This document shows, in pieces, positions 17,787-45,157 of a stretch of DNA of 64,000 nt. The notes under the pieces were generated by a model. It was not told the DNA's origin. It did not search any database and saw only the letters and a program-made list of their open reading frames with translations. The position numbers were made by a program, and so were the translations under genes. How positions within the stretch are numbered: position 1 is the stretch's first letter; each line of letters opens with the position of its first letter. Source of the DNA: Vibrio agarivorans (GTDB lineage: Bacteria > Pseudomonadota > Gammaproteobacteria > Enterobacterales > Vibrionaceae). The stretch is taken from contig NZ_JAUFQF010000001.1 of NCBI RefSeq assembly GCF_030409635.1, forward strand, positions 1,195,497-1,259,496, given 5' to 3'.

Positions 17787-17797
17787 TTGTATTACAA
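17787..17797. promoter_or_regulatory. TTGTNNNACAA operator, trimodular lyase promoter
   Basis: TTGTATTACAA, 32 bp before the lyase start codon. It matches the palindromes upstream of the alginate genes at 37-45 kb, so this distant lyase probably belongs to the same regulon. Confidence 0.65.
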
Positions 17798-17828
17798 AAT
17801 GTAACACCTGGTAAGGAAGCTTAATTCA

Positions 17829-20444
17829 ATGAAAACACCTATTCTGGTTAGTGCCGTCTCACTTGCCTGCGTCTGTCTATCGGCTTGTGGTGGCAGCAGT
17901 AGTGACAGTAATGATAGTGGCAATAACAATGACGACAGCACGATTATCATTGATGGTTCAGCAGCGTCATTTGAGGAACTACAGGCGGAGATTACCCAAG
18001 CCTCTTCGGGCGATACGATCACTGTGACGCAAGACTTATTCACTACAGACTCTGTGAGTATCGTCATTGACAAGTCACTTACCATTAAAGGAAGCCCCTC
18101 TGGCTACTCTTCACAGGATAAAGCCATTATCTCAGGTAATGTCTGTTTTGATATTCCAGACTCTGCAGACGGGCACTCAGGGATCACCTTATCCGACTTA
18201 CATTTTGAAGATATCGAAATGATGAAGAGAGACGATAATCAATCATGTGGTAGTGAGAGCGCCTCTCGTTCCATCATCAACGTTGGGAAAGTGGGGACTA
18301 ATGATACCTATGTGACACTCGACAATCTGAGTTTCGATGGCGCTGGCTTTGATGAACTGACAGCCAGTCCAACCGCTTGGATATACTCTCGTGGATTAGT
18401 CAGAGTCATCAATAGCACTTTTGCAAACAAGCAAACGACCAATAGTGCCAACAGCATCATTTATCTTAACTGTGGCAGCATTAGGGCTAACGGATCTATC
18501 TTCGATAGCAATACCTTTTCTTTAGATACCCCCTCTTCTGATGTTGCTGGCATTTGGGTTGGCCAGTTTGATGGAAAAACATGCCAAGCGACTGTTACCA
18601 ATAATGAATTTAATGACTTCAACCTCAATACGACGTCTAGTGAAGGTGAACTCGCCGCCATTATTGATGGGAGTAGCGATGAGACAGTCATAAGCGGTAA
18701 TCAATTTAACCCATCCAACACAGTACCCGATGAGCCCGAAGATGGAGAAATAGTTGCTCCTTATACTCTCGATTCCTTCAAAGCTATTATTAACGCATCC
18801 AAGCTACAGCGCTGGGACCCAACGCTAGAAGAAGGCGACAAACTAGATATCAGTAATCAAACTATCGCTAACGAAGATTACTTTGACGATTACTTTTATG
18901 CCTACCCAGCGTCAAACCAGCTGGTATTCAAAATGAGTGGTTATAAGAATCGCTCAGAGTTGCGTGTTGAAGAGAACTTTGACACCAGTGAATTTGGTAT
19001 AACTCGCACGCTGAACGCAAGCTTTAAGCCGGTTGGTATCCAAGAGGCGATCGCGAACAGTGTAAACGGTGACGAAGTCACGTTTTTACAGATACACAAC
19101 AAAGGAGAAGATGAAACTGGCAATGGATATATTCCTCACCCTCTGCTGCGTGTTGTGTACGAAGAAATTCGCAACGGCTTAACTGGACACTACTGGGCCG
19201 TCATCAAAGCTAATGCTGTTGATTGCAGCAGTGATAGCCCTTACGCAAATTCCGAAGCATGTGACAGCAGTAATGCTTACACTCGTTTTGATTTAGGTGA
19301 GGCCGATCTTGACAGCTTTACCGATATGGATCTTGCTGTCAGTGAAAGTCAGCTGACTATCTCGGTTAACGGGTTCGAAAAGGTCAATCTCGATATCAGT
19401 TATTGGGCGCACCTGCTTAGCTACTTCAAAGCTGGTGTCTACAACCAATACGATGACGGCGATGACATCAATGATTGGTCAGAAGTCCGCTTCACGGCAC
19501 TCACCGTCTCTGAAACAGAAACAACACCAGCGACAGGTTGGGATATTGACCAATGGAAGATAACGATACCTGCCAGCAAAGATGATTGGTATGGCTCTGG
19601 AGGAACGTCAGCAGCTGAATTGGTTCCCGTACATTGTAACGATAGTTCAAAGCAGGTGCTCAATGACAATAGCGACATTGTGTATAGCCAATACGACAGT
19701 GGCGAGATTTCCTTCTTCAACGTTTCACAAGAGCGCATGCACTTTAGAGTCGATATGGGCTATGGTACATCCACCAGCAACTCTAGCTATATTCGTTCTG
19801 AGTTGAGAGAGCTATTCAACGCCGAAAACCTTGGCACATGTAGCACCAGTAACCAAGACCAGATGACCAGTTGGTTTATCGATGACTCTGCAACAGGCAC
19901 CAAAGAACACAAGCTCACCTCGGTGCTTCGCATCGAAGACTACCCGATGATTAGCGGCCAAGATCCGAAAGTCGTGGTAGGGCAAGTGCATGGCTGGGAG
20001 ATCTCACAAGCTCTAATCAAGGTGCTTTGGGAGGGTGAAAATAAACCCGTTCGCGTGATCATGAATCAAGACTTTTTCTCTGATAATGAGAAATGTGATA
20101 GCAGCAACCCAGTCAATAACTGCGATAACTGGTCATTCAGCATCGAACTCGGGACATACGCTGCCAATGTGGATTGGCAATACGAAATTCTTGTCGATGA
20201 AGAAGGCATTTACCTTGCGACACTCGATAGCCTTGCTGGAGAGTCGAGCCGTGAAGATATCACTATTCATTGGGGAGAAGTATTCACGGATAAAAATGGC
20301 GACTCTGTCACCATGACCGAAAGCTGGAAAGATGAAGCGTACTATTTTAAAGCCGGTATCTATCCACAATTTAAGCCCGATAGCGACTACATTGGTGAAC
20401 GATTCGATGTCAGTTTTTCAACGATAAACATCGATCATCAATAA
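17829..20444 (+). CDS. Trimodular alginate lyase lipoprotein: beta-helix + PL7 + PL7
   Basis: An 871-residue surface or periplasmic lipoprotein. The lipobox LSAC ends at Cys20, followed by a Gly/Ser/Asn/Asp linker. Residues about 40-300 form a right-handed beta-helix-like domain (ITLSDLHFEDIEM, LRANG-type turns) of uncertain activity. Residues about 310-560 are a PL7 domain with RSELR, QIH and YFKAGVYNQ. Residues about 566-870 are a second PL7 domain with RSELREL, QVH and YFKAGIYPQ. In PL7, Arg, Gln, His and Tyr from these motifs carry out beta-elimination of alginate. Both PL7 catalytic sets look intact. It starts with ATG 17829 after AAGGAAG and ends at a terminator. Confidence 0.85.
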   Translation: MKTPILVSAVSLACVCLSACGGSSSDSNDSGNNNDDSTIIIDGSAASFEELQAEITQASSGDTITVTQDLFTTDSVSIVIDKSLTIKGSPSGYSSQDKAIISGNVCFDIPDSADGHSGITLSDLHFEDIEMMKRDDNQSCGSESASRSIINVGKVGTNDTYVTLDNLSFDGAGFDELTASPTAWIYSRGLVRVINSTFANKQTTNSANSIIYLNCGSIRANGSIFDSNTFSLDTPSSDVAGIWVGQFDGKTCQATVTNNEFNDFNLNTTSSEGELAAIIDGSSDETVISGNQFNPSNTVPDEPEDGEIVAPYTLDSFKAIINASKLQRWDPTLEEGDKLDISNQTIANEDYFDDYFYAYPASNQLVFKMSGYKNRSELRVEENFDTSEFGITRTLNASFKPVGIQEAIANSVNGDEVTFLQIHNKGEDETGNGYIPHPLLRVVYEEIRNGLTGHYWAVIKANAVDCSSDSPYANSEACDSSNAYTRFDLGEADLDSFTDMDLAVSESQLTISVNGFEKVNLDISYWAHLLSYFKAGVYNQYDDGDDINDWSEVRFTALTVSETETTPATGWDIDQWKITIPASKDDWYGSGGTSAAELVPVHCNDSSKQVLNDNSDIVYSQYDSGEISFFNVSQERMHFRVDMGYGTSTSNSSYIRSELRELFNAENLGTCSTSNQDQMTSWFIDDSATGTKEHKLTSVLRIEDYPMISGQDPKVVVGQVHGWEISQALIKVLWEGENKPVRVIMNQDFFSDNEKCDSSNPVNNCDNWSFSIELGTYAANVDWQYEILVDEEGIYLATLDSLAGESSREDITIHWGEVFTDKNGDSVTMTESWKDEAYYFKAGIYPQFKPDSDYIGERFDVSFSTINIDHQ

Positions 20445-20457
20445 GCCTATAAGATAG

Positions 20458-20490
20458 AACCCGATACTCCCCATTATAGTATCGGGTTTT
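20458..20490 (+). terminator. Terminator after trimodular lyase (bidirectional)
   Basis: Eleven-bp stem AACCCGATACT / AGTATCGGGTT with a 9-nt loop followed by TTTT; it lies between convergent genes and may serve both. Confidence 0.85.
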
Positions 20491-20517
20491 CTCATCCTCT
20501 AACGATTGATAGCCGCG

Positions 20518-21486
20518 TTACGTCTGTTTACTTCCATGCGCTTTACGATACTGTGCAGGAGTCATCGACTTCCAACGACGAAATGCACGATTGAAGTTAG
20601 ATAAATCGGAATAGCCGCAACGCCAAGCGACATCGGCTACAGGTACTAACTGCTCGAGTAGCTCACAAGCGAGCTCACATCGTTTCGTCTCTTTTAATTC
20701 TTGGAAAGAGCACTGATTCTCGGTAAAGCGGCGTTTCATAGTGCGGGTTGATACACCAATAAACCCTGCTAGCCAATCAATGTTAAACCAAGGTAGTGGA
20801 GCATATGAGTGGACTAGTCGCTTAATTTCATCAAACCAAGCCTCGCGCTTATAGTCAATTTCTACTGGCTTAAAATCTTGTGGTAGTGGCACTTCTATAG
20901 CGCCATAGGCCTGTTCATAAGTCACCTCAACAGATTCCATACCAGTAGGCAAACGCTGGGCAAGATGGCTCTTAAAACTCAACCAGACAGAGTGAGGTAT
21001 CCAAGTCTCTCCTAAGAAATCACGGCACATAGTGATCAGTGCAAAAGAGCGGAACCACTCTGCTTGGTCATAAGCTGGGGCAAATATCGGATAAGCTCCA
21101 CGATGACACAAATACCACTTATCGTTAATCTTTTCGGGCCAAAAGATCACATGATTATTCATGGTCTGCATTTGCTCGACGAGTGCATGAATACCGTCTG
21201 ACAATGACTGACATTTATCTAGCGCCTGCCCCAGCTCTGGAAACATATGCCCGACCGTCAATAATTGCCCTACTTCGATGCCAAGACGATCATGACTTTT
21301 GCTTATCATGGCGCTGATAAAAGAAAGCGCTGCATGTGTCGGCAACCAATATATTTGATCTTCGAGCATATCAGGAATTTGATATTGGTCAGCAGTATCC
21401 CGCCATTGAATACCCTGTGATTCAAAGTATTCGATAAACGGCAGAAGATTATTACTATGGGTTAAGTTGACAGGGCGTTGACTCAC
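20518..21486 (-). CDS. AraC-family regulator with AraC-like ligand-binding N-terminal domain
   Basis: A 322-residue protein. The first 200 residues resemble the arabinose-binding-like domain of OruR/ArgR-type AraC proteins (LGIEVGQLLTVGHMFPELG), and the last 100 residues are the double HTH with VADVAWRCGYSDLSNFNRAF and MTPAQYRKAHG. It starts with GTG at 21486. It is convergent with the trimodular lyase and closely related to the partial regulator at 1-489. Which genes it controls is unknown; it need not regulate the lyase, whose promoter lies 3 kb away. Confidence 0.85.
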   Translation of the reverse strand: MSQRPVNLTHSNNLLPFIEYFESQGIQWRDTADQYQIPDMLEDQIYWLPTHAALSFISAMISKSHDRLGIEVGQLLTVGHMFPELGQALDKCQSLSDGIHALVEQMQTMNNHVIFWPEKINDKWYLCHRGAYPIFAPAYDQAEWFRSFALITMCRDFLGETWIPHSVWLSFKSHLAQRLPTGMESVEVTYEQAYGAIEVPLPQDFKPVEIDYKREAWFDEIKRLVHSYAPLPWFNIDWLAGFIGVSTRTMKRRFTENQCSFQELKETKRCELACELLEQLVPVADVAWRCGYSDLSNFNRAFRRWKSMTPAQYRKAHGSKQT

Positions 21487-21588
21487 GGTTGCTCACGTTT
21501 TTTTAGACTTCAACTTTTGATAATAGTGAGTTACATCACCCTTGAAAAGTCACCGACAACAAAAATCTGGTTATAGTTTGGGGATTTC

Positions 21589-22494: not shown

Positions 22495-22535
22495 ACTTAG
22501 CACCTCACTTATGTTCAGAATAAAGTGCAGACGAC

Positions 22536-22567
22536 AAAAAGGGAATAGCTCTACTCAGACTATTCCC
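22536..22567 (-). terminator. Terminator of the repeat-protein gene
   Basis: Stem GGGAATAG / CTATTCCC with a 11-nt loop and, on the minus strand, a U5 tail. A second hairpin GAACAGG / CCTGTTC (22575-22595) sits just before it. Confidence 0.8.
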
Positions 22568-29317: not shown

Positions 29318-29349
29318 GGGTATTATCCGTTCAGGGTATTATCCGTTCA
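29318..29349. repeat. Perfect 16-bp tandem duplication at a gene end
   Basis: GGGTATTATCCGTTCA occurs twice in a row (29318-29333, 29334-29349). The second copy spans the stop codon of the FadR-type gene. Confidence 0.9.
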
Positions 29350-30055
29350 CAACACGTGCGAGTCGTTGATTATCATCATTAAGTAGTGCGTGTGAAGCCA
29401 TACGAGCTTCATCACTGCGACCAGCCATAATGGCATCATAAATCGCTTGGTGCTCTTCTAGACAGAATCGACCGCCTTCTACTGACTCATCAATGAACTG
29501 CTTGAAAATTGTCTCTAAAATATTGCCAAAAGGTAAGTAGAACTGATTTCCTGTCGACATAAAGATCGTCTGATGAAACAAATGATCGTTCACTGTCCAT
29601 TCATCATAATCAAAGGTGTTCGCCGCAATCGTCATCTTTTGGAAGATAATTGATAGCTCTTTACGCTGCTCTGCCGTTGCACCAATCGCCGCCAACGCAC
29701 ACGCTTCCGGTTCAATTGCTTTGCGTAAACCTAGGAACTGCGCCAAAAACGGCTCAGTATCTTCAAGGTCAAGAATCCACTCTAGCAGTTGTGGATCAAG
29801 AAAATGCCATTGACCTCTTGGACGTACCGTAGTGCCCACCTTAGGGCGAGACTCTATCAGGCCTTTGGCCGATAATAACTTTGTCGATTCACGCAATGCT
29901 GTACGGCTTACGCCAAACGCTTCACATAGCTCCACTTCATTGGGTAGCTTTTCGCTTTCACTCAACTTACCTGACAAGATTTGACGAGCAATTTGTCTAG
30001 CAACCTGAACATGAATCTTGCGACTGGAATTTTCTACAAGAGAAAAAATCGCCAT
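29339..30055 (-). CDS. GntR-family regulator, FadR subfamily (paralogue 1)
   Basis: About 238 residues from ATG 30055, with AGGAG seven bases upstream. The winged HTH covers residues 10-75 (LPNEVELCEAFGVSRTALRESTKLLSAKGLIESR, in parts), and the FCD all-helical effector domain follows (about 95-230), with metal-ligand-type residues D and H in NDHLFHQTIF. It is very similar to the regulator at 30657-31376. FadR/FCD regulators typically sense uronates or organic acids. Placement beside the alginate genes suggests a role as alginate/uronate regulator, acting on TTGTNNNACAA sites. The inverted repeat at 30074-30128 overlaps its promoter region. Confidence 0.88.
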   Translation of the reverse strand: MAIFSLVENSSRKIHVQVARQIARQILSGKLSESEKLPNEVELCEAFGVSRTALRESTKLLSAKGLIESRPKVGTTVRPRGQWHFLDPQLLEWILDLEDTEPFLAQFLGLRKAIEPEACALAAIGATAEQRKELSIIFQKMTIAANTFDYDEWTVNDHLFHQTIFMSTGNQFYLPFGNILETIFKQFIDESVEGGRFCLEEHQAIYDAIMAGRSDEARMASHALLNDDNQRLARVVNG

Positions 30056-30073
30056 AACAATGCTCCTGAATAA

Positions 30074-30128
30074 TATCAATTTGAGTCGTAATCAAATGGT
30101 GTTATTTCACTAACGACTCAAATTGATA
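30074..30128. repeat. 16-bp perfect inverted repeat with 23-nt spacer
   Basis: Arm TATCAATTTGAGTCGT (30074-30089) and its exact complement ACGACTCAAATTGATA (30113-30128) lie 19 bp upstream of the FadR-type start. It may be a pair of operators or a leader hairpin. Confidence 0.8.
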
Positions 30129-30656: not shown

Positions 30657-31376
30657 ATGGCAAGCGCATTTAACTCTATTTCTGGTTCTAAACGCAGCCT
30701 CCATGTTCAAGTTGCTCGTGAAATCGCACGTGGCATTTTGTCAGGAGAACTACCAGAAGGCTCTATTCTCCCAGGTGAGATGGCGCTTTGCGAACAATTT
30801 GGTATCAGCCGCACGGCTTTACGTGAAGCAGTCAAGCTTTTGACCTCGAAAGGTTTACTTGAATCTCGCCCTAAAGTGGGAACACGTGTTATTCACCGTG
30901 CTTACTGGAACTTCCTTGATCCACAGTTAATTGAGTGGATGGACGGTTTAACCGATCCTGATCAGTTCTGTTTCCAATTCTTGGGCCTGCGTCGTGCTAT
31001 TGAGCCGGAAGCTTGTGCTCTGGCAGCTTCGCACGCAACCGCGGAGCAACGCATTGAACTGTCAGAAACATTCCAACGCATGGTAGAGATCGCCGAAGCT
31101 GAAACGTTCGACCAACAACGCTGGATGGAAGTGGACACTCAGTTCCACAGCTTGATCTTCAACGCGACAGGCAATGACTTCTACCTCCCGTTTGGTAACA
31201 TCCTAACCACGATGTTCGTTAACTTCATTGCGCACTCTTCTGAAGAGGGCAACACATGTATCAACGAACACCGTCAAATTTATGATGCGATCATGGCAGG
31301 TAATGCCGATAAAGCACGCAGCGCCTCTGCACAGCATCTAATTGCACACAAACACCGTTTACCTGAAGCAAGTTAA
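30657..31376 (+). CDS. GntR-family regulator, FadR subfamily (paralogue 2)
   Basis: A 239-residue protein with HTH (residues 10-75, ILPGEMALCEQFGISRTALR) and FCD effector domain (about 95-230; metal-type residues in EVDTQFHSLIF). It is highly similar to the regulator at 29339-30055; the two are divergent, about 600 bp apart. Both are candidates for the regulator of the TTGTNNNACAA sites. It has its own terminator at 31405-31431. Confidence 0.88.
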   Translation: MASAFNSISGSKRSLHVQVAREIARGILSGELPEGSILPGEMALCEQFGISRTALREAVKLLTSKGLLESRPKVGTRVIHRAYWNFLDPQLIEWMDGLTDPDQFCFQFLGLRRAIEPEACALAASHATAEQRIELSETFQRMVEIAEAETFDQQRWMEVDTQFHSLIFNATGNDFYLPFGNILTTMFVNFIAHSSEEGNTCINEHRQIYDAIMAGNADKARSASAQHLIAHKHRLPEAS

Positions 31377-34203: not shown

Positions 34204-35697
34204 TTAGCTGTGCTTTTCAGTCAAACTTTGCTTCTTTTTCATACGCAAAGTTGAGTACACAGAGAAAATCGCTAACAACACGAATGCTAACGCTATTGGA
34301 CGCTCATACAAGAAAGACCAGCTACCATCATACATCAACAAAGACTTACGCAAGTTCGTTTCAGCCATTGGGCCTAAGATAATTGCGAGTAAGATTGGTG
34401 ATGACGGGATCTCCATCTTGGTTAAGAAGAATCCAAGTAGACCAAATGAAATCGCAACACCCACATCAAAGATCGAGTTGTTGATCGCATAAGCACCGAC
34501 AACGGATAAGAAGATGATCACCGGGATCATTATCAGTTTCGGCACTTCGATAATGCGGCAGAAGAAGCGAATACCGACAAGGCCAACCACTAACATCAGC
34601 AGGTTTGCTACCAGCATCGAGCTAAAAACACCGTAAACGATATCTGGGTTTTGCGTGAACAGCAGAGGGCCCGGAGTCAGACCTTGGACAATCAATGCAC
34701 CAAGCAGTACTGCTGCCGTTGCATCACCCGGCACACCCAATGTTAATAATGGAACCAAAGAACCACCCGTTACGCCATTGTTACCCGCCTCAGCAGCTGC
34801 CAAGCCTCGCACAGAGCCTTTACCAAACTCATCTGGGTTCTTAGACGAACGTTTCGCTTCGTTGTAACAAACAAACGCGGAGATATCAGCACCCGCCCCC
34901 GGTACAGAACCGATTGCTGTACCCATCGCACCACTTTTTACTGCGGTAGGTAACATCTCTTTGATGTCTGATTTGCTCAGCAATTTATGGTCAAACTTGG
35001 TCGCTTTGACTTGTTTCTCTTTATGCAGTTTCTCTAGTTGGTTCAATGCTTCTGATAGCGCAAACAAACCGATCAATACGGGAATTACGTTGATACCGCT
35101 ATACAGATCCATCACGCCAAAAGTGAAGCGCGGCACACTACTGATTGGGTCTAAACCTACCGTTGCAACTAGCAAACCAATCGTACCCGCTAAAAGACCT
35201 TTTAGAATATTCTTAGAAGAGACACTGGCAATAATAGTTAGACCAAAAAGAGCCAGAGCGAAATATTCCGGCGCATTGAAGCGTAGAGCAAAGGTTGCCA
35301 GCTTTGGCGCAATCGCGATCAATACAATGGTACTGATCAAGCCACCGATGAAAGAAGCTACTGCAGAGATACTCAGCGCACGTGCCGCCTGCCCCTTTGT
35401 CGCCATCGTATGACCATCAAGCACAGTGGCTGCGGACGCGGGAGTGCCCGGGGTTTTTAGTAGAATTGCGGCAATTGAACCACCGTAGATACCACCGATA
35501 TAGACACCAATCAGCATCACAAGCGCAGAGGTTGGCTCCATACCAAAGGTAAACGGCAATAGTATCGCCACCCCCATAGTCGCTGTTAGACCGGGTAATG
35601 CACCTAAAATAATTCCGCCCAAGACACCAAACACCAGTACCGGTAATACAGCCGGGCTCATTGCGGTGCCCAAACCATCAATTAAATACTCAAACAT
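34204..35697 (-). CDS. tctA: Tripartite tricarboxylate transporter, large permease TctA
   Basis: A 497-residue inner-membrane protein with about 11-12 helices and the TctA signatures LPGLTATMGVAILLPFTFGM (early) and GSVPGAGADISAFVCYNEAKR (about 270). The TTT family imports carboxylates using a periplasmic binding protein and an ion gradient. It is the last gene of an operon with the 156-aa gene, tctC and tctB. The operon's TTGTNNNACAA site suggests that the substrate could be an alginate-derived acid. Confidence 0.93.
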   Translation of the reverse strand: MFEYLIDGLGTAMSPAVLPVLVFGVLGGIILGALPGLTATMGVAILLPFTFGMEPTSALVMLIGVYIGGIYGGSIAAILLKTPGTPASAATVLDGHTMATKGQAARALSISAVASFIGGLISTIVLIAIAPKLATFALRFNAPEYFALALFGLTIIASVSSKNILKGLLAGTIGLLVATVGLDPISSVPRFTFGVMDLYSGINVIPVLIGLFALSEALNQLEKLHKEKQVKATKFDHKLLSKSDIKEMLPTAVKSGAMGTAIGSVPGAGADISAFVCYNEAKRSSKNPDEFGKGSVRGLAAAEAGNNGVTGGSLVPLLTLGVPGDATAAVLLGALIVQGLTPGPLLFTQNPDIVYGVFSSMLVANLLMLVVGLVGIRFFCRIIEVPKLIMIPVIIFLSVVGAYAINNSIFDVGVAISFGLLGFFLTKMEIPSSPILLAIILGPMAETNLRKSLLMYDGSWSFLYERPIALAFVLLAIFSVYSTLRMKKKQSLTEKHS

Positions 35698-35706
35698 GAT
35701 AGCCTC

Positions 35707-36150
35707 CTACATCCAGCTTGCTTCAGGTAGAGCGATATAGAACACCTGACCAAACAGGTAATACACAGTGAAAACAAAACCAAGCCCAATAGCGTAATAC
35801 AGTGGCTTTTTCACTTTAAAGAAAATCAGATAAGCGACAAAGGCAATGAGACTGGCATATAGATAGCCAAGAAAGTTAATTGCTACCGCATAAGTAATAA
35901 GATAACCGATACCAAACAGAGACATTTTGGTAATAAGCGGCCCATCCGCTTTATCGATTCCTTTTAATTTCTGTTGAACAAGTAGTGCAATACAAATCAC
36001 AATTTGCATCACCACGATTAACGTTGGGAAAAAACTCGCATCGACACTCGCGTCTTGATACATAGGACTGTCGAACTGAGAAATCAGCCATAACGCGATG
36101 CCGGCAAAGAGAATAACGATAGATGGAAACACGACATTTCGATTGACCAT
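35707..36150 (-). CDS. tctB: Tripartite tricarboxylate transporter, small permease TctB
   Basis: A 147-residue protein with four membrane helices, the normal size and layout for TctB. It is 9 bp upstream of tctA and 76 bp downstream of tctC in the same operon. It is required for the TTT permease complex; its exact function is unclear. Confidence 0.88.
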   Translation of the reverse strand: MVNRNVVFPSIVILFAGIALWLISQFDSPMYQDASVDASFFPTLIVVMQIVICIALLVQQKLKGIDKADGPLITKMSLFGIGYLITYAVAINFLGYLYASLIAFVAYLIFFKVKKPLYYAIGLGFVFTVYYLFGQVFYIALPEASWM

Positions 36151-36226
36151 AGACTTACCTCAAAAACTACAAATGGTACAAAGGGAAAAGCAGTGCGGCA
36201 CCTTTCGGTGCCGCGGTAATCAATAA

Positions 36227-37153
36227 TTATTTAATCAACGTTGCGAGAGATTTCGTGTCTTGCTCAACAAAATCTGTGAACGATTGTGCGTCAAGGTTAT
36301 GAATCGTCATCGCACCTTTTTGCATGAACTCTTTGAATTCAGCAGAAGCCATTGCTTCATCAAATGCGTTGCCTAAAACTTCGATGATCTCATCTGGCGT
36401 ATCTTTCGGTGCGCCGATACCACGCCATGTACCCGTTACCACATCAATGCCTTGCTCTTTCAGCGTCGGAACATCAGGGATGTACTCGATACGCTCTTCA
36501 GACATGACGCCTAGCGCTTTAAGCTGGCCAGAACGCAACTGAGCAATCGCCTCGCCCGGAGTCACCATAGTCACATCAGTGTGCTTGCCCAGTACTGCTG
36601 GGATCGCTTCAGATGCGCCGTTGTATGGGATCGCGTTCATTTTGATGTCTTGGTCTTTTTCAAGAGACATCAAGTAAAAGTTTGGCGCAGCCGTTGATGC
36701 AAACTTCACGCTGCCAGGGTTCTCTTTCGCGTCTTTGATTAAGTCATTAATCGTGTTGTAAGGGCTATCTTTCGATACCAATACCACTGCTGGGTCAAGG
36801 TTAACCAGTCGAATCAGTTTGAAATCGTCTGCTGTGTGACGCATCAAGCCCATTTGTGGCAGCGATGCAATCTCACGTGTCACAACTGTCAAGGTATAAC
36901 CATCTGCACGCTGCTGCGCACCAAAACTCATACCTACTGCACCTGCACCACCAGTGCGGTTAACAATTGAGATGTTCTGCCCCAGCACATCTTTCGCGCT
37001 GTTAGCTAATGTACGGCCAACCGCATCCGTACCACCACCTGCACCAAATGGCACCACTAGGCGAATATTCTTAGTCGGGTAATCTGCAGCGAAGGTTGTT
37101 GCTGAAGCGAGAATGCCTGCGGCAACCATGAGAGATTTTAGTAATTTACTCAT
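36227..37153 (-). CDS. tctC: Tripartite tricarboxylate transporter, periplasmic binding protein TctC
   Basis: A 308-residue secreted protein (signal peptide to about TTFAAD) of the Bug/TctC family: YPTKNIRLVVPFGAGGGTDAVGRT is the classic ligand-loop segment. The Bug fold captures carboxylates via two bound waters. It lies 25 bp downstream of the 156-aa gene and starts the transporter part of the operon. Ligand unknown; the operator suggests a uronate-related acid. Confidence 0.92.
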   Translation of the reverse strand: MSKLLKSLMVAAGILASATTFAADYPTKNIRLVVPFGAGGGTDAVGRTLANSAKDVLGQNISIVNRTGGAGAVGMSFGAQQRADGYTLTVVTREIASLPQMGLMRHTADDFKLIRLVNLDPAVVLVSKDSPYNTINDLIKDAKENPGSVKFASTAAPNFYLMSLEKDQDIKMNAIPYNGASEAIPAVLGKHTDVTMVTPGEAIAQLRSGQLKALGVMSEERIEYIPDVPTLKEQGIDVVTGTWRGIGAPKDTPDEIIEVLGNAFDEAMASAEFKEFMQKGAMTIHNLDAQSFTDFVEQDTKSLATLIK

Positions 37154-37178
37154 AATGTAGACCTTTTGAATTAGATAG

Positions 37179-37649
37179 TTATCGGTATGTTTGTGTAGGG
37201 TTTTCTATTTTTTGTGTTTGGTATTCGTGCATCATCAGCTGCTCGATAGCCAAGGCAATCCAACTACTGATCAACATGTCGTACCATTGTTGAACTCCGC
37301 TGCAAGCAACCACGATGTTGCCGTAAACGAACGAGCCATAAAAAAGCACGTCCTCTTCGCGAAGTGAGCTTGGGTGAATCTGTTGCAGCTGCACATTACT
37401 CGTTGACTCACGCCACGCTTGTGCTGCTTTTTTCTGTGCTAGATGATCAAAAGGAATAGTCCATGAGTCAGGATCACCTAACGAGGTTTGATAGAGAATG
37501 GCGTCTTCAAAAGAAGATTCCCAAGGTTTTAAATGCGGGTTCATCACCACGATATGCAGTTCTTGACGATTGGTGCGCTCGAATAAACGTTCGATAGAAG
37601 GTTTCACAAGCTCCACTGCATCAATGGCGATGGCTTGAATGTCTCTCAT
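37179..37649 (-). CDS. Hypothetical protein, first gene of the TTT operon (156 aa)
   Basis: Not recognised. A soluble 156-residue protein without signal peptide; Trp- and Gln-rich, with central segment VLFYGSFVYGNIVVACSGVQ that may form a beta sheet. It is 25 bp upstream of tctC and directly downstream of a TTGTNNNACAA palindrome, so it is the promoter-proximal gene of the operon. A role linked to the imported compound (enzyme, sensor or chaperone) is plausible but unsupported. Confidence 0.75.
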   Translation of the reverse strand: MRDIQAIAIDAVELVKPSIERLFERTNRQELHIVVMNPHLKPWESSFEDAILYQTSLGDPDSWTIPFDHLAQKKAAQAWRESTSNVQLQQIHPSSLREEDVLFYGSFVYGNIVVACSGVQQWYDMLISSWIALAIEQLMMHEYQTQKIENPTQTYR

Positions 37650-37976: not shown

Positions 37977-38660
37977 TTAGAAGCTGTAAGTGATACCTAC
38001 ACGGCTACGTAGTTGGCGGCTGCTATCTTCGCCTGCTTTTTCACATGCACTGTTACATTGAACGTTACCTAGTTCAATGTATGGACGCCAGCTCCAATCT
38101 TTTTCTTTGTAACCAATTTTGAAGTTGTAATCCCATTCGTGCTCGCCATTGTTCCATTTTTCAGCAAAAAAGTCTTCTGCGTAGTTTGCTTCAAAACCAA
38201 ATTGCCAAGCATTCCAGTTGTAGTCGATGTTACCTGTCACTTTACTACGGTTCAGGTTCTCACCATCGGCAACATTACGTAGCTCATGACGGTAACGGAA
38301 TTTAGTTGTGATACCGTTTTCGAATTTGTATTGAACACGTACTTGAGGTTTATATGTTGTACGACCGTTGCTACCAAATGTCACTGGCATGGCTGTTTGA
38401 ATACGCCATTGCTTGTCAATGTTCCAATTGTAGCCGTATTCAAATTCATTATCTGCGCGCTCAAGTTCGTCAAGCTCACCAGAGTGTTTTGCTTCAACAC
38501 CAAAATAGTGATTACCAACACCAGCACTGATTTTAATTCGACCAGCACGCTCTTCACCGCCATGCTTGTATTCTTCACGAAAATCCAGAGATGCTGCTGA
38601 AACAAGAGTGGTAGCAAGTAGGGATGCCACTGCGATAGAGGCTTTAGATAGTTTGTTCAT
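37977..38660 (-). CDS. kdgM: KdgM-family oligouronide porin (copy 1)
   Basis: About 227 residues from ATG 38660, with AAGG seven bases upstream; the TTG two codons earlier is not needed. A signal peptide (to LVSAAS) is followed by beta strands typical of KdgM 12-strand barrels (TYKPQVRVQYKF, KFRYRHELRN, RQLRSRVGITYSF) ending in F. KdgM porins admit acidic oligosaccharides such as oligogalacturonate or oligoalginate. It is divergent from the PL7 gene with operators between them. An odd CNSACEKAGED insert with two Cys near the C-terminus may form a loop disulfide. Confidence 0.9.
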   Translation of the reverse strand: MNKLSKASIAVASLLATTLVSAASLDFREEYKHGGEERAGRIKISAGVGNHYFGVEAKHSGELDELERADNEFEYGYNWNIDKQWRIQTAMPVTFGSNGRTTYKPQVRVQYKFENGITTKFRYRHELRNVADGENLNRSKVTGNIDYNWNAWQFGFEANYAEDFFAEKWNNGEHEWDYNFKIGYKEKDWSWRPYIELGNVQCNSACEKAGEDSSRQLRSRVGITYSF

Positions 38661-38691
38661 ATTCAAACCTTATATAACGTCCGTTGTGTTA

Positions 38692-38702
38692 ATGTATGAC
38701 AA
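38692..38702. promoter_or_regulatory. TTGTNNNACAA-type operator, kdgM copy 1 promoter
   Basis: Coding-strand reading TTGTCATACAT, 32 bp upstream of the kdgM start; it is part of TTGTCATACATTAACACA, shared with kdgM copy 2. Confidence 0.6.
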
Positions 38703-39057: not shown

Positions 39058-39068
39058 TTGTAAGACAA
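39058..39068. promoter_or_regulatory. TTGTNNNACAA operator, PL7 lyase promoter
   Basis: TTGTAAGACAA, 25 bp before the PL7 start codon. Confidence 0.65.
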
Positions 39069-39092: not shown

Positions 39093-40010
39093 ATGAAAGC
39101 TAAATTACTTGCTACTGCTGTTATTACTTCCCTCTCTTTCGGTGCCCATGCTGCGGATAAAATCCCTGCTGACGTATTAGACTTATCTTGCTGGAAGGTG
39201 ACACTTCCGGTGTCACTCACTGGTGGTGATAAACCAACTGAATTTTCTGAACAAGAGATTGTGAATGGTGCAAACCATGATGAGTATTTTTATGTAAACG
39301 AAGCAGGTGATGGGGTTGTATTCCGCTCACCAGTAGCAGGTGTGCGTACATCAGAAAACACTAAGTACATTCGTTCAGAGCTACGTGAGATGATGCGTTG
39401 TGGTGATGAAAGCATCAGTACTCGTGGTGTAAACGGCAACAACTGGGTGTTTAGCAATAATGTATCAGAAGAGTCTCACAAACTTGCTGCTGGAGTTGAT
39501 GGTACGTTAGAAGCGACACTTTCTGTAGATCATGTTACGACAACGGGCGAAATCTGGCAGCAAGGCCGTGTAATTATTGGTCAAATTCATGCTCCAAAAG
39601 ACGAGCCAGTCAAGATCTACTACCGAAAACTTCCGAACCACACCACCGGATCACTTTGGATCTCTCACGAGCCCAACCGTGGTGATGACATCATCTTCCC
39701 GATGATCGGCCCAAGCAAACCAAACTACTGGCGTCAAAGCGCAAAAGATGTTCCTGAGTCATTTGATGATGGTATCGCACTAGGTGAGAAGTTCTCATAC
39801 AAAATTGAGATCGAAGGCGCTGATATGACAGTAACGGTTATGCGTGATGGTAAACCTGACGTGGTTCAAAAAGTCGATATGCAAAACTCAGGTTATGAAG
39901 AAGCGGATCAGTGGATGTATTTCAAGGCGGGTGTCTACAACCAAAACCGTACTGGTGATGCTGACGACTATGTTCAAGCAACTTTCTACAAGCTGGATGT
40001 AAACCACTAA
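39093..40010 (+). CDS. PL7 alginate lyase, secreted
   Basis: A 305-residue single-domain PL7 (alginate lyase 2 superfamily) enzyme with cleavable signal peptide (GAHAADK, cut about residue 20). Catalytic motifs: YIRSELREM (about 91-98), IIGQIHA (about 165), and MYFKAGVYNQN (about 283-293). QIH is the variant often linked to polyguluronate or mixed activity. It has no lipobox, so it is periplasmic or released. It follows a TTGTNNNACAA operator, is divergent from kdgM copy 1, and is ended by a terminator at 40074-40111. Confidence 0.93.
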   Translation: MKAKLLATAVITSLSFGAHAADKIPADVLDLSCWKVTLPVSLTGGDKPTEFSEQEIVNGANHDEYFYVNEAGDGVVFRSPVAGVRTSENTKYIRSELREMMRCGDESISTRGVNGNNWVFSNNVSEESHKLAAGVDGTLEATLSVDHVTTTGEIWQQGRVIIGQIHAPKDEPVKIYYRKLPNHTTGSLWISHEPNRGDDIIFPMIGPSKPNYWRQSAKDVPESFDDGIALGEKFSYKIEIEGADMTVTVMRDGKPDVVQKVDMQNSGYEEADQWMYFKAGVYNQNRTGDADDYVQATFYKLDVNH

Positions 40011-40357: not shown

Positions 40358-41083
40358 TTAGAAGCTGTAAGTTAGACCTACACGGCTACGTAGTTCGCGA
40401 GTTGACTTCTCTGAAGATGTGCTTACGTCACCAAATTCAACGTAAGGTGCCCATTGGCCCATCACATAACGAACAGAAGTATTTAGCTCATAGTTTGTGT
40501 CGTCGTTATCGTAGATATCGTAACCATCGGCTTTGTACCAGTTTGCTTCGAAACCAAAGCGCCATGCATCCATAGCGTAGTTTACGTTACCGGTAATACG
40601 GTGACGACGCTGATTAGATACGTTTTCTGTGCCTAGTTCTGGACCATCTTCGCCCTCTACGATTACTGTTTTAGACGTGTTTTGACGCATGTCATAACGG
40701 TAACGTGCACTCAGGCTTAGGCCGTCAATGCTATCAAATGAGTAAGTCGCACGTACTTGTGGTTTGTATGTAATACCACCTTCACGAGCTTCAATTGGCA
40801 TACCGTAAGTCATTGTCCAGTTGTCGTTTAGCTTATGACGGTAGTTAAGGCCCAGCTCCCAGCCGTTGTTTTTCAAATCTTCCATGAATTTGCCATCTTC
40901 GCCTTTGAACTTAGCTTCGATGTCGACTAAAAAGTTACCGATGCTGTCTCCCAGCTTTACACGAGTAGCGTGCTGATCAGTGTGGCTTTTAAACTCATGA
41001 CGAACGTCAAGTGATGCCGCTGATACCGCTGTCGTTGCTAAAAGAGTTGCCACTGCAACAGATACTTTAGATAGTTTGTTCAT
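40358..41083 (-). CDS. kdgM: KdgM-family oligouronide porin (copy 2)
   Basis: About 241 residues from ATG 41083 (AAGG upstream). The signal peptide MNKLSKVSVAVATLLATTAVSAAS is nearly identical to that of copy 1, followed by KdgM-type strands (ITYKPQVRATYSF, SARYRYDMRQN, LRSRVGLTYSF). It is a clear paralogue of 37977-38660 and shares the promoter block TTGTCATACATTAACACA. Two porins with diverged loops may accept oligomers of different length or composition. Confidence 0.9.
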   Translation of the reverse strand: MNKLSKVSVAVATLLATTAVSAASLDVRHEFKSHTDQHATRVKLGDSIGNFLVDIEAKFKGEDGKFMEDLKNNGWELGLNYRHKLNDNWTMTYGMPIEAREGGITYKPQVRATYSFDSIDGLSLSARYRYDMRQNTSKTVIVEGEDGPELGTENVSNQRRHRITGNVNYAMDAWRFGFEANWYKADGYDIYDNDDTNYELNTSVRYVMGQWAPYVEFGDVSTSSEKSTRELRSRVGLTYSF

Positions 41084-41115
41084 GTTCAAACCTTAGGTGA
41101 TACTTGTATGTGTTA

Positions 41116-41126
41116 ATGTATGACAA
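41116..41126. promoter_or_regulatory. TTGTNNNACAA-type operator, kdgM copy 2 promoter
   Basis: Coding-strand TTGTCATACAT, 33 bp upstream of the kdgM copy 2 start, same spacing as in copy 1. Confidence 0.6.
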
Positions 41127-41590
41127 ATAGTTTAATGAAATATCGGTTTAGAACTGTGATGGAGCTCAATATAAATTACGTGCTACTGGATAAAGAAGAT
41201 GATATTCACTCTCATTTAAAAATTAAACTACTGATAAAAATCAAATTTATCTTGGAAAATTTGCCCATGAGCAACTTTCACTTAAGTCAGATTTGTGAGC
41301 TATCACAAAATTAACAATGGAACTTAGGTCTGTTTTTAATACTTAGATATTATTTATTAACATACAGCAAAACTAAGACGATCAAACCAGCAATAAACCA
41401 CGCAACATCCGTGTCACAAGGCTTGTGGGGATTTTTTAGTAAATCAAATAAAGTTGATGGCTGTAACCTGCAGCCAGGGGCGAGTGAGCTCTATTTGCGG
41501 GGGAATTTTTAGGCTTTCCTTGAACCAGCAAGTGGCAGGATCCAAGAAAAGCCTTTTGGTATGGTCACTACGATAGGTTGAGTTCAATGG
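41127..41590. other. Intergenic region upstream of kdgM copy 2 and after the chemoreceptor
   Basis: No convincing gene; a 64-codon plus-strand ORF at 41120-41314 is low-complexity and rejected. It contains a palindrome TTGTGA-GCTA-TCACAA (41293-41308; spacer 4, not a standard CRP site) and a hairpin GGCTTTCCTTG / CAAGAAAAGCC (41512-41553) followed by TTTT on the plus strand. Confidence 0.5.
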
Positions 41591-43495
41591 CTAGATGCTG
41601 AACTGGCCTATCTGCTCGTTAACGCTTCTGTTCAGTTTTAACACCTCTTCAGACTCATCAACTTGCTGCTCACTTTTCGCATTCAACTCAATCACGAGAT
41701 CGTTGATCTTATGGATATTGACATTGATACTTTGAATCACTGTGTTTTGTTCTGCCGCCGAATTAGAAATCTCTCCATTGAATTGACTGATCGTTTCAAT
41801 TTGAGTGTCGAGTGTTGACAGCATACCGACTGCTCGGTCAACTTCGTCTCTGGTACTTGCACAATACGTTTTGGTCTTGTCAATCGACTGAACCAACCCA
41901 CCAGACTGCTCCATTAACTTGGCCAATGCCGATTCTATTTCTGCAGTGCTAACCTGAGTTCGACTTGCCAGTGCCCTCACCTCATCAGCAACCACGGCAA
42001 ACCCTCGGCCATGCTCCCCTGCTCTTGCCGCTTCAATCGAAGCATTAAGTGCTAACAAATTGGTTTGCTCTGCAATACTCCCGATCACTGTCACTATCGA
42101 CTGAATGGCATTTGTTTCATTCGCCATCTCATTGATATTGTCGAATGTCACCTGAACTTGATTTTCTAATTCGATGATGTTTTCTTGCGCGAGTTCATGC
42201 ACGTGTTTGGCTTGATCACTCAGTTGTTGAGCAGATTGCGCAGCTCCGGCGGCCGAATCTGTATGCTTCTCTACCACGATAGACGACTGAGATAGCTCAT
42301 CGATAGCTGTCACGATCTGAGTCGTTTCACTGGTGTGGATATTTAATACTCGATTGGTGTCTTTACAACTGCTCTCGATACTTTGTGTTTTGCTATCAAG
42401 CGAACGTGAGGACTGGTTCACTTGACGCAGCATCTGTTGCAGACCATCGATGAACTGGTTTATTCCGTTGGCAATATCTGCCAAGTCATCTTTTCCTTTC
42501 ACCTCTAAACGCTGAGTTAAATCACCACTGCCCGCCGATAATCCATTAATCAAAATCTTAAGAGATTTGATTGGCTGATAGATACGGTCGAGGATAAACG
42601 CTACCGCTAGCGATGCTAGTATTAACGCTGTCATGATCATCAGCAGAGCATTTTGATTCGCTTTGTCGAGTTCAGATAGCGCCAAAACCTCATCTACCAC
42701 GACAATCATCTGCCAAGTTGCCTGGCTCCCTAACAACACGGGCATTGAGGTCACAAGTGAATCATGGCCATCGACTGTTTGATGCAAAAACTCACCAGAT
42801 TGCAGGACACCCATTTGAAGAGATGAATCCGCTAACTGTGACTGAGGCTGAATACTCTCTATGGTCGAGGCTATCACCACGCCGCGATCATCTGCCACTA
42901 CTGCTCTAGCATTGCTAATCGTCTCAAGGTCCAAAAGCTTTTCATGGACATCAGAAAATCGAATATCCGCCATGATCACGCCATCAGCAAAGGAGTACAT
43001 AACACCAATCATTGGAGTTTGATCACTTTTAGTAAAGAAGACATCACTGAGTGAAAGGCCACGCGTTTGTCTCGCGTCTTGGTACCAAGGTCGCGTCCTT
43101 GGGTCGTATTTACTTTTTATTCCGACGCCATTCGGGAAAGACTCCGAAGGCCTTGAGGTAAATGAGTTGCCATCATCAAAACCGAAGACAACCTTATCTA
43201 TACCACCAAACTCAGAGGCTAAGAGTGCTAACTTTTCCGTTGCAATCGTGTCTTTGGGGCTGGACACATAATGGTCTGCGAGAGCATTAACGGTTTCAAT
43301 CGTTCTCTGTACAGTTTGTTCAAGCTCTTTCACTTCATTACTAAGCGAGTGATTGATTTCACCGAGAATACGATGATTGACCTGGTGGCTTAACTGGCTT
43401 TGAGACAGCATACCAACAACAAGTAAAGACAAAGCGGTTGTTACCATCGCGGCAACAATAATTTTGGATTTAAATCCCAGCCTTAAGATTTCCAT
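41591..43495 (-). CDS. Methyl-accepting chemotaxis protein (dCache-type sensor)
   Basis: A 634-residue chemoreceptor: N-terminal membrane helix (about 12-30), periplasmic double-Cache domain (about 35-275, with [20 protein letters not shown]), second membrane helix (about 280-300), HAMP (about 303-355) and a cytoplasmic signalling domain whose hairpin tip reads [20 protein letters not shown] (about 470-490). Its position among alginate genes suggests sensing of alginate oligomers or a product, which is inference. No TTGTNNNACAA site is seen within 60 bp of its start. Confidence 0.93.
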
Positions 43496-43680
43496 TTCGG
43501 CTAGAACTCCTATTCTAATTTTTAGTGAAAGCCTCGATAAGAGACTAGTGATAGTGAACTATGAGCATGTCAGACGATGCCGGTCGACATTAAGTTAAGC
43601 TGCGCTCATCGCATCACTTGCTTGTGCTGTGAGTAAAACTTCGATTGTGTTTTATCATTCGCTCTTGTTCCTGAACTTGC

Positions 43681-43776
43681 TCAAAGGAACAGTCCGTCTT
43701 CGATATAAGCTTGAGTATTGAGAAATACCGCATTAACTAGACTAGAGCGGCCTGAGGCTCGAGCGGGATGGGTCAT
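43681..43776 (-). pseudogene. 31-codon ORF, probable 5' remnant of a decayed gene
   Basis: ATG at 43776 with AGGA six bases upstream and an operator-like site at 43801; the product begins MTHPARASGRSSLVNAVFLN and ends IEDGLFL. After its stop a neighbouring frame continues as EQVQEQERMIKHNRSF, suggesting a frameshifted remnant. The N-terminus loosely recalls M20-type peptidases. It could instead be a genuine small peptide. Confidence 0.3.
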
Positions 43777-43800
43777 TTTTTGTCCTAATGATTTTATTAT

Positions 43801-43811
43801 TAGTCGTACAA
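43801..43811. promoter_or_regulatory. TTGTNNNACAA-like site before the 31-codon ORF
   Basis: Minus-strand TTGTACGACTA, one base from the perfect palindrome, 25 bp before the ATG at 43776. The remainder of 43496-43680 and 43812-44019 shows no gene. Confidence 0.45.
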
Positions 43812-44019
43812 AATAATAATAAAGACCAAATAATGTTCTGTGAGCCAAATCTAAGTTTACACATCCTGTTACAAGCATAAAAATGACAAACACTATAAAT
43901 CCATAATAATACCCATAAAAAACAAGAATTTACTTAAATGCACCCTCTGTCCGTCATCTGATAAAAGTTCAAGAAATGTGCACTAGTCAAAAAAAATTGA
44001 AATTTTACTTTATTTTTAT

Positions 44020-44030
44020 TTGTCATACAT
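44020..44030 (+). promoter_or_regulatory. TTGTNNNACAA-type operator next to a sigma-70 -10 box
   Basis: TTGTCATACAT, identical and in the same orientation relative to transcription as in both kdgM promoters. It is directly followed by TATGAT (44031-44036), a good -10 element, pointing to a transcript starting near 44043. Confidence 0.6.
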
Positions 44031-44042
44031 TATGATGTACAC

Positions 44043-44350
44043 ACTGTTACGAGGTGAGCGGTGCTGTCGTTCCCTTGCCTCACTTATTTGACCTAGTGGA
44101 TTGTTCATAACATCGACAGGGTCTGGTTAGGTGCTTCCGCTTAGGATGTATCGACCCGTTGAGCAAACTCCCCCTTTGCTTAACAAACAATTTGGCTGAG
44201 CTTGTTATTAGCAAGCAACAGTAACTTGGTTTCCAAGACTGTTTTAGCCATGAATTTTAAAACAACTATAAATTTTGCTGACATCCCCCAACTCAGCAAC
44301 CCATACCTGCTGCGCTCACACGATACAGGCCGTGTGAGCGCTTTTTTTTT
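44043..44350 (+). ncRNA. Candidate alginate-regulon small RNA with C-rich loop
   Basis: A region of about 300 nt with promoter (operator + TATGAT) and a very strong terminator: stem GCGCTCACACG / CGTGTGAGCGC (44312-44322 / 44331-44341) plus nine T. Inside, GTTGAGCAAA / TTTGCTTAAC (44158-44184) forms a 10-bp stem with a loop of CTCCCCC, which could pair with GGGGAG-like ribosome-binding sites. A further stem GTGAG/CTCAC lies at 44054-44083, and GGGTC/GACCC pair around 44130-44156. No good ORF fits: the 106-codon ORF from 44202 runs through the terminator. The 5' end is estimated. Confidence 0.5.
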
Positions 44351-44484
44351 ATTTTCGATCTCTGCTTTTCGTTTGCTGGATGAAATCCATCAAGACCGAT
44401 TAACGCTCGCTCAGTTGTTCGTAATATTGTTTTGCTCACAAATTATACCGATTACGAATCACACAACCTCTAAAGAGCAAGATC

Positions 44485-44808
44485 ATGAAAAAAATCACTA
44501 TCACAAAAACCGTCGCATTTAGCGTGTTAACCACTTCACTCATTAGCGGAGCAGCATTTGCTAATACCAGTAATGTCTCGACGGATATTATTCAGGAAGA
44601 TGCACACGTTTCTGCAGCAGATGGTCCGCAACAAGCAGCGATGAGACAAGCAGAGCATCAGCATGCTCTTGAGCAACTTGAGCGTGATGGCAATGTCGAT
44701 CGCTATACAGAAACTAATGGCGTTGACCACTCTGTTCAAAGGTTGTCATCAGATTGCGAAAATGAAGCGATTCCTTCAGGCGCAAAAATCAATGAACATT
44801 GTGAGTAA
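44485..44808 (+). CDS. Small secreted protein of unknown function (107 aa)
   Basis: Starts at ATG 44485 (weak AGAGCAAGA upstream) and encodes a signal peptide (to about AAFANT, residue 26) followed by an 80-residue hydrophilic, His/Gln/Glu-rich region (AAMRQAEHQHALEQLERDGN) with two Cys near the end (SSDCENEAI, NEHCE) that could form a disulfide. Family not recognised. It sits between the candidate sRNA terminator and its own hairpin at 44827-44847, so it may be an independent unit or depend on read-through from the sRNA promoter. Confidence 0.7.
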   Translation: MKKITITKTVAFSVLTTSLISGAAFANTSNVSTDIIQEDAHVSAADGPQQAAMRQAEHQHALEQLERDGNVDRYTETNGVDHSVQRLSSDCENEAIPSGAKINEHCE

Positions 44809-44826
44809 CCTTGTTTGAAATTGAGC

Positions 44827-44847
44827 AAACGGCTTTAGAGCCGTTTT
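44827..44847 (+). terminator. Terminator after the small secreted protein gene
   Basis: Eight-bp stem AAACGGCT / AGCCGTTT with a TTAG loop and short T-run. The rest of 44848-45146 shows no gene. Confidence 0.8.
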
Positions 44848-45146
44848 CTCTTACTCAGTGTAAAACCAACACTCACATCACTTCTACTTCCCACCGGCTT
44901 CATCAATTAACGTTTAAAACCCTTTTAGGCATCCCGTTTAAGCAGTAATTTGTAGTATTTAATCAACCTAATCAAAACGCCATTTCATTTTCAACGGTAT
45001 GATTACTTGGCTTCCAAAGCAGGCAAGCGTTCCTTATCTAGTATCGTCTATAAGACAATTCCCAAAGCAAAAAGAAGTAAGATCCAGATCACTTGTATGA
45101 GTAATGCGCGGGCTACAAACGCTAACTTTGTCACGTTCTTGAAATA

Positions 45147-45157
45147 TTGTAGTACAA
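45147..45157. promoter_or_regulatory. TTGTNNNACAA operator, symporter/PL6 promoter
   Basis: TTGTAGTACAA, 59 bp before the SSS symporter start codon. Confidence 0.65.

Follow-up and report, generated by a model that had tools for sequence, protein, structure and literature searches.

The 64,000-nucleotide window analysed here (Vibrio agarivorans, contig NZ_JAUFQF010000001.1, positions 1,195,497 to 1,259,496) carries a cluster of putative alginate-utilization genes and, upstream of several of them, an 11-bp palindrome, TTGTNNNACAA. The cluster comprises PL7 lyases, two KdgM-type porins, a TTT importer, a sodium:solute symporter, and two GntR regulators with an FCD domain, FadA and FadB, whose names were coined for this analysis and imply no fatty-acid role. 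An earlier note on this DNA had proposed that the palindrome marks an alginate regulon across 27 kb and is read by FadR-type regulators. The two GntR/FCD paralogues that it placed inside the locus are both recognized by Pfam, and comparative genomics supports well its reading of the palindrome as a GntR/FadR-type operator. Table 1 summarizes the features of the window and the related loci elsewhere in the genome.

Table 1. Features of the window and related loci elsewhere in the V. agarivorans genome (positions prefixed C1); the operators are predictions.
Feature	Position	Strand	Basis or remark
Predicted operator TTGTATTACAA before trimodular PL7 lyase gene	17787..17797	+	Exact; matrix score 17.2; 32 bp to ATG
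Large lyase with PL7 (Alginate_lyase2) domains	17829..20444	+	Pfam PF08787, two stretches
FadA, GntR/FCD regulator	29339..30079	-	Pfam GntR and FCD; BLASTP, 61% identical to FadB
FadB, GntR/FCD regulator, best DNA-binding candidate	30657..31376	+	Pfam GntR and FCD; distribution; FCD exclusion
TTT importer operon, tctA-tctB-tctC and conserved 156-aa ORF	34204..37649	-	Pfam TctA/B/C
Predicted operator before TTT operon, coding strand TTGTCGTACAA	37685..37695	-	Exact match
kdgM1 porin	37977..38666	-	Pfam PF06178
Predicted operator TTGTCATACAT before kdgM1	38692..38702	-	Abuts TATAAT; CRP-like site 37 bp upstream
Predicted operator TTGTAAGACAA before PL7 lyase	39058..39068	+	Exact; matrix score 16.8
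PL7 alginate lyase	39093..40010	+	Pfam PF08787
kdgM2 porin	40358..41089	-	Pfam PF06178
Predicted operator TTGTCATACAT before kdgM2	41116..41126	-	One mismatch; CRP-like site 36 bp upstream
Methyl-accepting chemotaxis protein, Cache-like sensor, possible regulon member	41591..43495	-	Pfam
Weak predicted operator TTGTACGACTA	43801..43811	-	Score 9.1; 306 bp before chemoreceptor start
Predicted operator TTGTCATACAT at structured-RNA promoter	44020..44030	+	Score 14.3; conserved in G048
Candidate ~300-nt RNA	44042..44347	+	Terminator stem 44312-44341 and T-run; start point inferred
Predicted operator TTGTAGTACAA before symporter	45147..45157	+	Exact match
Sodium:solute symporter and chondroitinase-B-fold (PL6-like) lyase, probable operon	45217..48718	+	Pfam PF00474, PF14592
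Strong motif match before TamA-like Omp85 gene	11799..11809	-	Exact; membership doubtful
SDR with site	C1:153159		Putative DEH reductase
kdgF-like cupin gene with kdgK and eda, divergent from PL17-like pair	C1:169224
Second symporter with site	C1:171503
PL15-like lyase with site	C1:741268

The palindrome in the window

All eight palindromes listed in the earlier note lie where it had placed them, four as exact TTGTNNNACAA (17787, 37685, 39058, and 45147) and four with one mismatch (38692, 41116, 43801, and 44020); a fifth exact copy, absent from that note, was found at 11799. The claimed spacing of 25-60 bp, measured from the site edge to the start codon, holds wherever a start exists. The exact sites lie 32, 36, 25, and 60 bp from their starts in the order given, the kdgM1 and kdgM2 sites 26 and 27 bp, and the 43801 site 25 bp from a 31-codon open reading frame (ORF) with its ATG at 43776.

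The bare 11-mer was rejected as a genome-wide marker, as it shows no excess over a reversed control. In the window, the exact 11-mer was observed five times against 2.05 expected, with at least five copies in 6 of 100 shuffles, and its one-mismatch form 49 times against 45.8 expected. Because the bare 11-mer is unselective, position, clustering, and conservation carry the case. The earlier note had suggested judging the motif by its frequency before random genes; by that measure the bare 11-mer does not stand out, whereas position, clustering, and conservation do.

As for clustering, the narrower pattern TTGTMNKACAA occurs five times in the window, where its frequency in the rest of the genome would predict 0.45 (Poisson P ~1e-4). 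We also trained a weight matrix on 14 TTT-promoter sites, 13 from other species and one from the window itself. At a score of at least 14, the matrix found eight sites in the window but zero once the window was reversed; 40 draws from a first-order Markov null gave a mean of 0.9 and a maximum of 4. Seven of these strong sites belong to the eight of the earlier note, and the eighth is that at 11799, which sits 68 bp before the TamA-like Omp85 gene (10023-11741), has no evident alginate link, and may be chance. The 43801 site is the weakest of the original eight and marginal on sequence alone.

Conservation across species and sites elsewhere in the genome

For the TTT operon, a receptor search returned 47 loci; six at 32-40% identity were dropped, and the 41 at 71% or more were kept. 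The 250 bp preceding the first gene of the operon were scanned for sites. At -40 to -60, the site was exact in 15 of the 41 loci and had one mismatch in seven (22 in total). The first gene of the window's own operon (37179-37649, 156 aa) adjoins TctC in 33 of the 41 related loci and gave no Pfam match even at E 1. Additionally, the core of the symporter operator at 45147 recurs at 70 bp in loci L006-L009.

A stronger test read the stretch preceding the second member of a PL17-like gene pair in 47 of the 50 PL17-positive Vibrionaceae; the three omitted were the window's own genome, a genome where PL17 matched only once, and one whose pair lies close to the end of a contig. The stretch read was the PL17/kdgF intergenic region in 40 genomes and the 500 bp upstream of PL17 in the seven where kdgF was not found. 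Exact TTGTNNNACAA was found in 43 of the 47 species and a match with at most one mismatch in 45, with none in the remaining two; the reversed control gave 0/47. The 46 sites of the PL17 loci yielded the consensus wATTGTATKACAATw.

Twelve further genomes were searched for PL17, and seven were positive (V. hannami, Alginatibacterium, Marinomonas sargassi, and four Psychromonas). An exact site lies 55-341 bp upstream in all six readable loci of the seven, namely those of V. hannami, Alginatibacterium, M. sargassi, and three Psychromonas, five of which lie outside the Vibrionaceae. As a negative control, 30 kduD loci were taken from 64 kduD-positive genomes, and an exact site within 300 bp of kduD was found in none of the 29 other genomes read. 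The operator is thus conserved before pathway genes across species, as expected of an alginate regulon.

These counts make it hardly credible that the matches reflect chance or promoter composition, that is, TACAAT -10 hexamers in A+T-rich upstream DNA. The bare pattern is no commoner genome-wide than its reversed control, and many TTT sites do contain TACAAT; however, the site stands upstream of PL17 in 43 of 47 species against none for the control, is absent from the 29 kduD promoters, and reaches eight strong copies in the window against the Markov mean of 0.9.

In the V. agarivorans genome as a whole, the 39 TTGTMNKACAA sites were placed against ORFs chosen by length; 28 are intergenic and 11 fall within ORFs. 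Pathway genes follow eight of the intergenic sites at 11-70 bp, counted from site start to gene start; they are PL7 twice, TTT, SSF twice, kdgF/PL17, PL15-like, and SDR, and four of the eight sites are in the window. The labels PL17, PL15, and KdgF were assigned from domain content and gene order, without a named family model. Of the other intergenic sites, those scanned precede unrelated genes (catalase, citrate synthase, a MerR and a DeoR-type regulator, and others) or have no near gene. That one palindrome marks an alginate regulon, as the earlier note had it, is well supported, but the regulon is not confined to 27 kb. The genome has seven PL7 genes (eight matched stretches), two of them in the window with sites, and a third has the near-site CTGTATTACAA 33 bp upstream.

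Extension of the regulon to a uronate cluster encoding UxaC, a KdgF-like cupin, and KdgR (L240, C2:64500-84400) was rejected. There, TTGTATGACAA-type sites at 7188, 12827, and 15555 (TTGTATGACAA twice and TAGTATGACAA once) precede two kduD genes and a symporter, but none of the 29 other genomes has an exact kduD site; the L240 sites may be strain-specific or chance. The third of them, before the symporter, lies 43 bp from a place resembling the KdgR box. Elsewhere (L117 6243, C1:732242), an exact TTGTAATACAA lies about 590 bp before a 591-aa ORF (3877-5652) without a Pfam match, which has a second weak site 61 bp before it.

Candidate regulator, promoters, and possible further members

We consider it likely that FadB controls the alginate regulon through the operator wATTGTATKACAATw, judging from domains, distribution, and site conservation. 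FadB has an N-terminal GntR winged helix (PF00392, 65.7 bits against a cut-off of 27) and a C-terminal FCD domain (PF07729, 83.2 bits against 24.3), and its candidate site fits the TNGTNNNACNA-type palindrome of the GntR/FadR family.

Among 197 Vibrionaceae, FadB (E<=1e-60) was found in 52 and PL17 (E<=1e-150) in 50. All 50 PL17-positive genomes have FadB, against 2 of the 147 PL17-negative ones, as raw counts that ignore phylogeny. Two genomes, G334 and G340, have FadB only, and fadB of G334 carries a stop codon. A FadB match is also present in all 41 TTT-bearing genomes.

The earlier note had left the choice between the two paralogues open. The distribution favours FadB, whereas several site-bearing genomes gave no FadA, which disfavours FadA as the sole regulator. 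The exact site is kept in Alginatibacterium (G024), V. hannami (G031), Psychromonas (G032), and M. sargassi (G037), all of which gave just one FadB-type match at E<=1e-30. Only one FadB-type match was found in nine of the 52 FadB-positive Vibrionaceae, and the seven of these that were read at PL17 all have the exact site. That FadA, or an obligatory FadA/FadB pair, binds the site rather than FadB alone is unlikely, mainly because of the four single-match genomes. Still, FadA has a helix-turn-helix similar to that of FadB, two or more FadB-type matches occur in 43 of the 52 genomes, six FadA-less Photobacterium-type genomes hold another FCD protein about 40% identical to both, and gntR1 and gntR2 of Vibrio sp. 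C42 are both reported to be alginate-induced (PMC13390454). With its similar helix-turn-helix, FadA probably shares the sites with FadB in the genomes that have it.

The other FCD proteins were screened by exclusion, the screen covering FCD-family proteins only. In G296 and G302, which keep the exact site, the FCD proteins found were FadA, FadB, and PdhR only, and the same three were found in G343, which has a one-mismatch site; Psychromonas G032 yielded FadB together with one protein resembling PdhR and one resembling UxuR. Among the pathway-linked FCD proteins, only FadB is shared by G296, G302, and G032. It is distinctly improbable that a non-FCD transcription factor, PdhR, or a UxuR-like protein reads the palindrome. 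PdhR or a PdhR-like protein occurs in each of these four genomes, the screen was limited to FCD factors, and in V. agarivorans itself TTGTCGTACAA is flanked by an agarase-CBM-like gene and the gene of a UxuR-like FCD regulator (L085 1501, C1:272514), suggesting that a second FCD regulator uses a similar operator. However, G296 and G302 keep the site without any FCD protein besides FadA, FadB, and PdhR, the last being a general regulator with the E. coli operator ATTGGT-N3-ACCAAT, whereas the distribution of FadB follows PL17 almost perfectly within the Vibrionaceae.

Several observations weigh against FadB as the reader of one alginate-specific operator. Genome-wide, the bare 11-mer occurs 135 times and its reversed-pattern control 187 times; for TTGTMNKACAA the corresponding counts are 39 and 42. 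The pattern is also shared within the FCD family, given the UxuR-like gene beside TTGTCGTACAA in L085. Nineteen of the 41 TTT loci have no site at the expected place, among them some from Vibrio and all that belong to Psychromonas, Marinomonas, or Photobacterium, though the genomes of the latter three genera have a FadB match; in eight of the 19, the first-gene homologue was not found and tctC served as the reference for the distance. In the loci read, no site scoring at least 9.5 was seen for four of the seven PL7 genes of V. agarivorans, and therefore not every lyase gene belongs to the regulon. Five FadB-positive Marinomonas among the 12 further genomes searched have no PL17 match at E<=1e-60; outside the Vibrionaceae, FadB therefore does not track PL17. 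Six of the seven "FadA-less" Vibrionaceae hold a further FCD protein that is equidistant from FadA and FadB, at 39-42% identity (the Photobacterium-type genomes G312, G321, G308, G295, G307, and G274; loci L284-L289). These six keep the PL17 site without a FadA-type match, but the third protein makes them weak evidence against FadA-type partners. Finally, no good site was found between fadA and fadB in the window, though gntR1 and gntR2 of C42 are reported to be alginate-induced. An exact site lies 184 bp from FadB in L011, and among the 18 orientable FadB loci of 30, a score above 8 occurs within 700 bp in six and an exact site within 300 bp in two; autoregulation of FadB is not evident from these upstream regions.

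In the mechanism that we infer, FadB dimers would sit on operators at or near the core promoter and repress the lyase, porin, importer, oligo-lyase, and kdgF-kdgK-eda promoters until an alginate breakdown product, an unsaturated uronate, 4-deoxy-L-erythro-5-hexoseulose uronate (DEH), or 2-keto-3-deoxygluconate (KDG), releases them. CRP may add activation at some promoters. The observed sites are at the core promoter or close to it, most directly at kdgM1. Using the CRP consensus, CRP-like sites were found 35-37 bp upstream of the operators of kdgM1 (one mismatch), kdgM2, and 43801 (two mismatches each); a match with at most two mismatches in 150 bp arises in 6% of shuffles, and the sites of kdgM1 and kdgM2 are not independent because the pair is paralogous. 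At that spacing, the TTT promoter has only a four-mismatch match. The kdgF and PL15 promoters have two-mismatch matches at other spacings, and the remaining promoters have three or four mismatches. A sigma-70 scan found nine promoters against 19.4 in shuffles, fewer than expected, and its matches are hence weak evidence.

The chemoreceptor and the folded ~300-nt RNA may also be regulon members. The dCache_1 domain of the chemoreceptor scored 43.0 bits, just below the cut-off of 45. Homologues (E<=1e-150; 45-61% identical) were found in 16 of the 197 Vibrionaceae, all 16 FadB-positive; six candidates were scored per genome, and absences elsewhere are not firm. Of the 15 others, 13 have a site scoring at least 11 in the 700 bp before the gene, which in eight is at about -440, and the window's own match in this span is the operator of the RNA at 44020. 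Such a distance leaves room for another transcript before the chemoreceptor, and the conserved TTGTATTACAA in the eight relatives may start a different short transcript. In L006 (2263), L230-L236, and L238, this TTGTATTACAA, ~440 bp before the chemoreceptor, adjoins a long stretch without an evident gene. The 43801 site does precede the 31-codon ORF to which the earlier note had assigned it, but it more likely serves the chemoreceptor; with a TATTAT -10-like hexamer and the CRP-like box at 35 bp, it is plausible as a chemoreceptor promoter.

The predicted fold of the candidate RNA has a z-score of -6.8, with none of 100 shuffles as stable, and the transcript would end in an 11-bp terminator stem followed by a T-run. 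Rfam gave no match in the window at the gathering score and none at E<=1 in 43500-44500. In the relative G048, both ends and the operator are conserved, and the middle differs. Any match was found in 8 of 148 genomes and a match to both ends only in the own genome and G048, so the RNA is narrowly distributed. No ORF with a shared start was seen in the comparison with G048; near the 3' end, one frame of ~27 codons is open and similar in both, and a short coding part may lie there. A search of the own-genome DNA covered here for complements of the conserved 3' segment returned, among the 15 longest matches listed, only the RNA itself. Between the RNA and the symporter lies a 107-aa ORF (44485-44808) with a signal-peptide-like start and no confident Pfam match; G048 (L119/L126) has a 114-aa ORF in a similar place. 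It is conceivable, if doubtful, that the alginate regulator also switches on a trans-acting structured RNA and a dedicated chemoreceptor. If so, one operator would couple seaweed digestion to chemotaxis and post-transcriptional control.

Relation to known systems

The analysis gives a named candidate regulator, a 15-17 bp operator, and a predicted regulon that extends from lyases to Eda, with site conservation that reaches the Vibrionaceae, three Psychromonas, one Marinomonas, and Alginatibacterium. One protein and a handful of promoter fragments would suffice to test the model, which also nominates the chemoreceptor and the new RNA as alginate pathway members and offers an alginate-sensing part for engineered degraders of brown algae.

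In enterobacteria, KdgM-type porins and KDG enzymes are controlled by KdgR, of the IclR family. A KdgR equivalog is present in the own genome beside kduD; KdgR differs from FadB in protein family and in its box. The KdgR consensus was not found with at most two mismatches in L115, L116, and L117, and only two places in the window resemble it: 44971, at 176 bp from the symporter operator, and 3709, far from any operator.

UxuR and ExuR share with FadB the FCD family and a link to uronate catabolism, and the own genome has two UxuR-like paralogues. However, FadB scored only 49 and 44 bits, where the UxuR and ExuR cut-offs of NCBIfam are 442 and 396, and it shares 24-26% identity with the two paralogues. 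Its best NCBIfam equivalog was LldR, with 92.5 bits against a cut-off of 311. The identities LldR, PdhR, NanR, GlcC, UxuR, ExuR, and fatty-acid FadR were all rejected, each far below its curated NCBIfam cut-off.

DgoR, the D-galactonate repressor of E. coli, is likewise an FCD regulator of sugar-acid catabolism. The solved structures nearest to FadB are 9jpj, deposited as a pyruvate dehydrogenase complex repressor, and DgoR 7c7e (E 1.8e-19), and that nearest to FadA is DgoR 7c7e (6.8e-25). The DgoR operator IR1 is reported to contain TTGTAGTACAA and to overlap the promoter (PMC12288454), and this sequence is identical to the window core at 45147. Unlike FadB, whose neighbours and putative targets are alginate genes, DgoR controls the dgo operon for D-galactonate; the similarity is remote and does not amount to orthology. 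A divalent metal is reported to be necessary for sugar-acid binding by DgoR, with D146, H150, and H195 as ligands (PMC7674646). In the consensus of 35 FadB-type sequences, the metal-site residues D..FH, EH, and a third histidine are conserved; this third FCD histidine has no counterpart among the reported DgoR ligands and is not conserved in 19 FadA-type sequences. An interpretation of its absence from FadA as loss of the metal site was dropped, since the ligands reported for DgoR are D146, H150, and H195 only. The two paralogues may sense different ligands.

A further parallel is the alginate utilization locus of Vibrio sp. C42, which is of the same type, with TTT, SSS, porin, MATE, chemoreceptor, and GntR genes (PMC13390454). 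From gene order, gntR1 of C42 would correspond to FadB and gntR2 to FadA. Its six lyase genes, the porin, SSS, TTT, and two of the three gntR genes are reported to be alginate-induced (PMC13390454). The TTT importer, which the earlier note had called unknown, can no longer be so described, as its C42 homologue is reported to import unsaturated alginate oligosaccharides and to be specific for them (PMC13390454). That paper, of June 2026, calls the regulation of alginate use in Vibrio elusive; its main text contains none of the terms palindrom, promoter, or emsa, and its methods list gntR deletion mutants, with no regulon result in the parts covered (PMC13390454). In the open full-text literature, with subscription journals and regulon databases outside the scope, we found no description of a FadB-type alginate regulon. 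Set beside these systems, the one predicted here is of an ordinary GntR/FadR catabolic kind and, as a regulon, is new.

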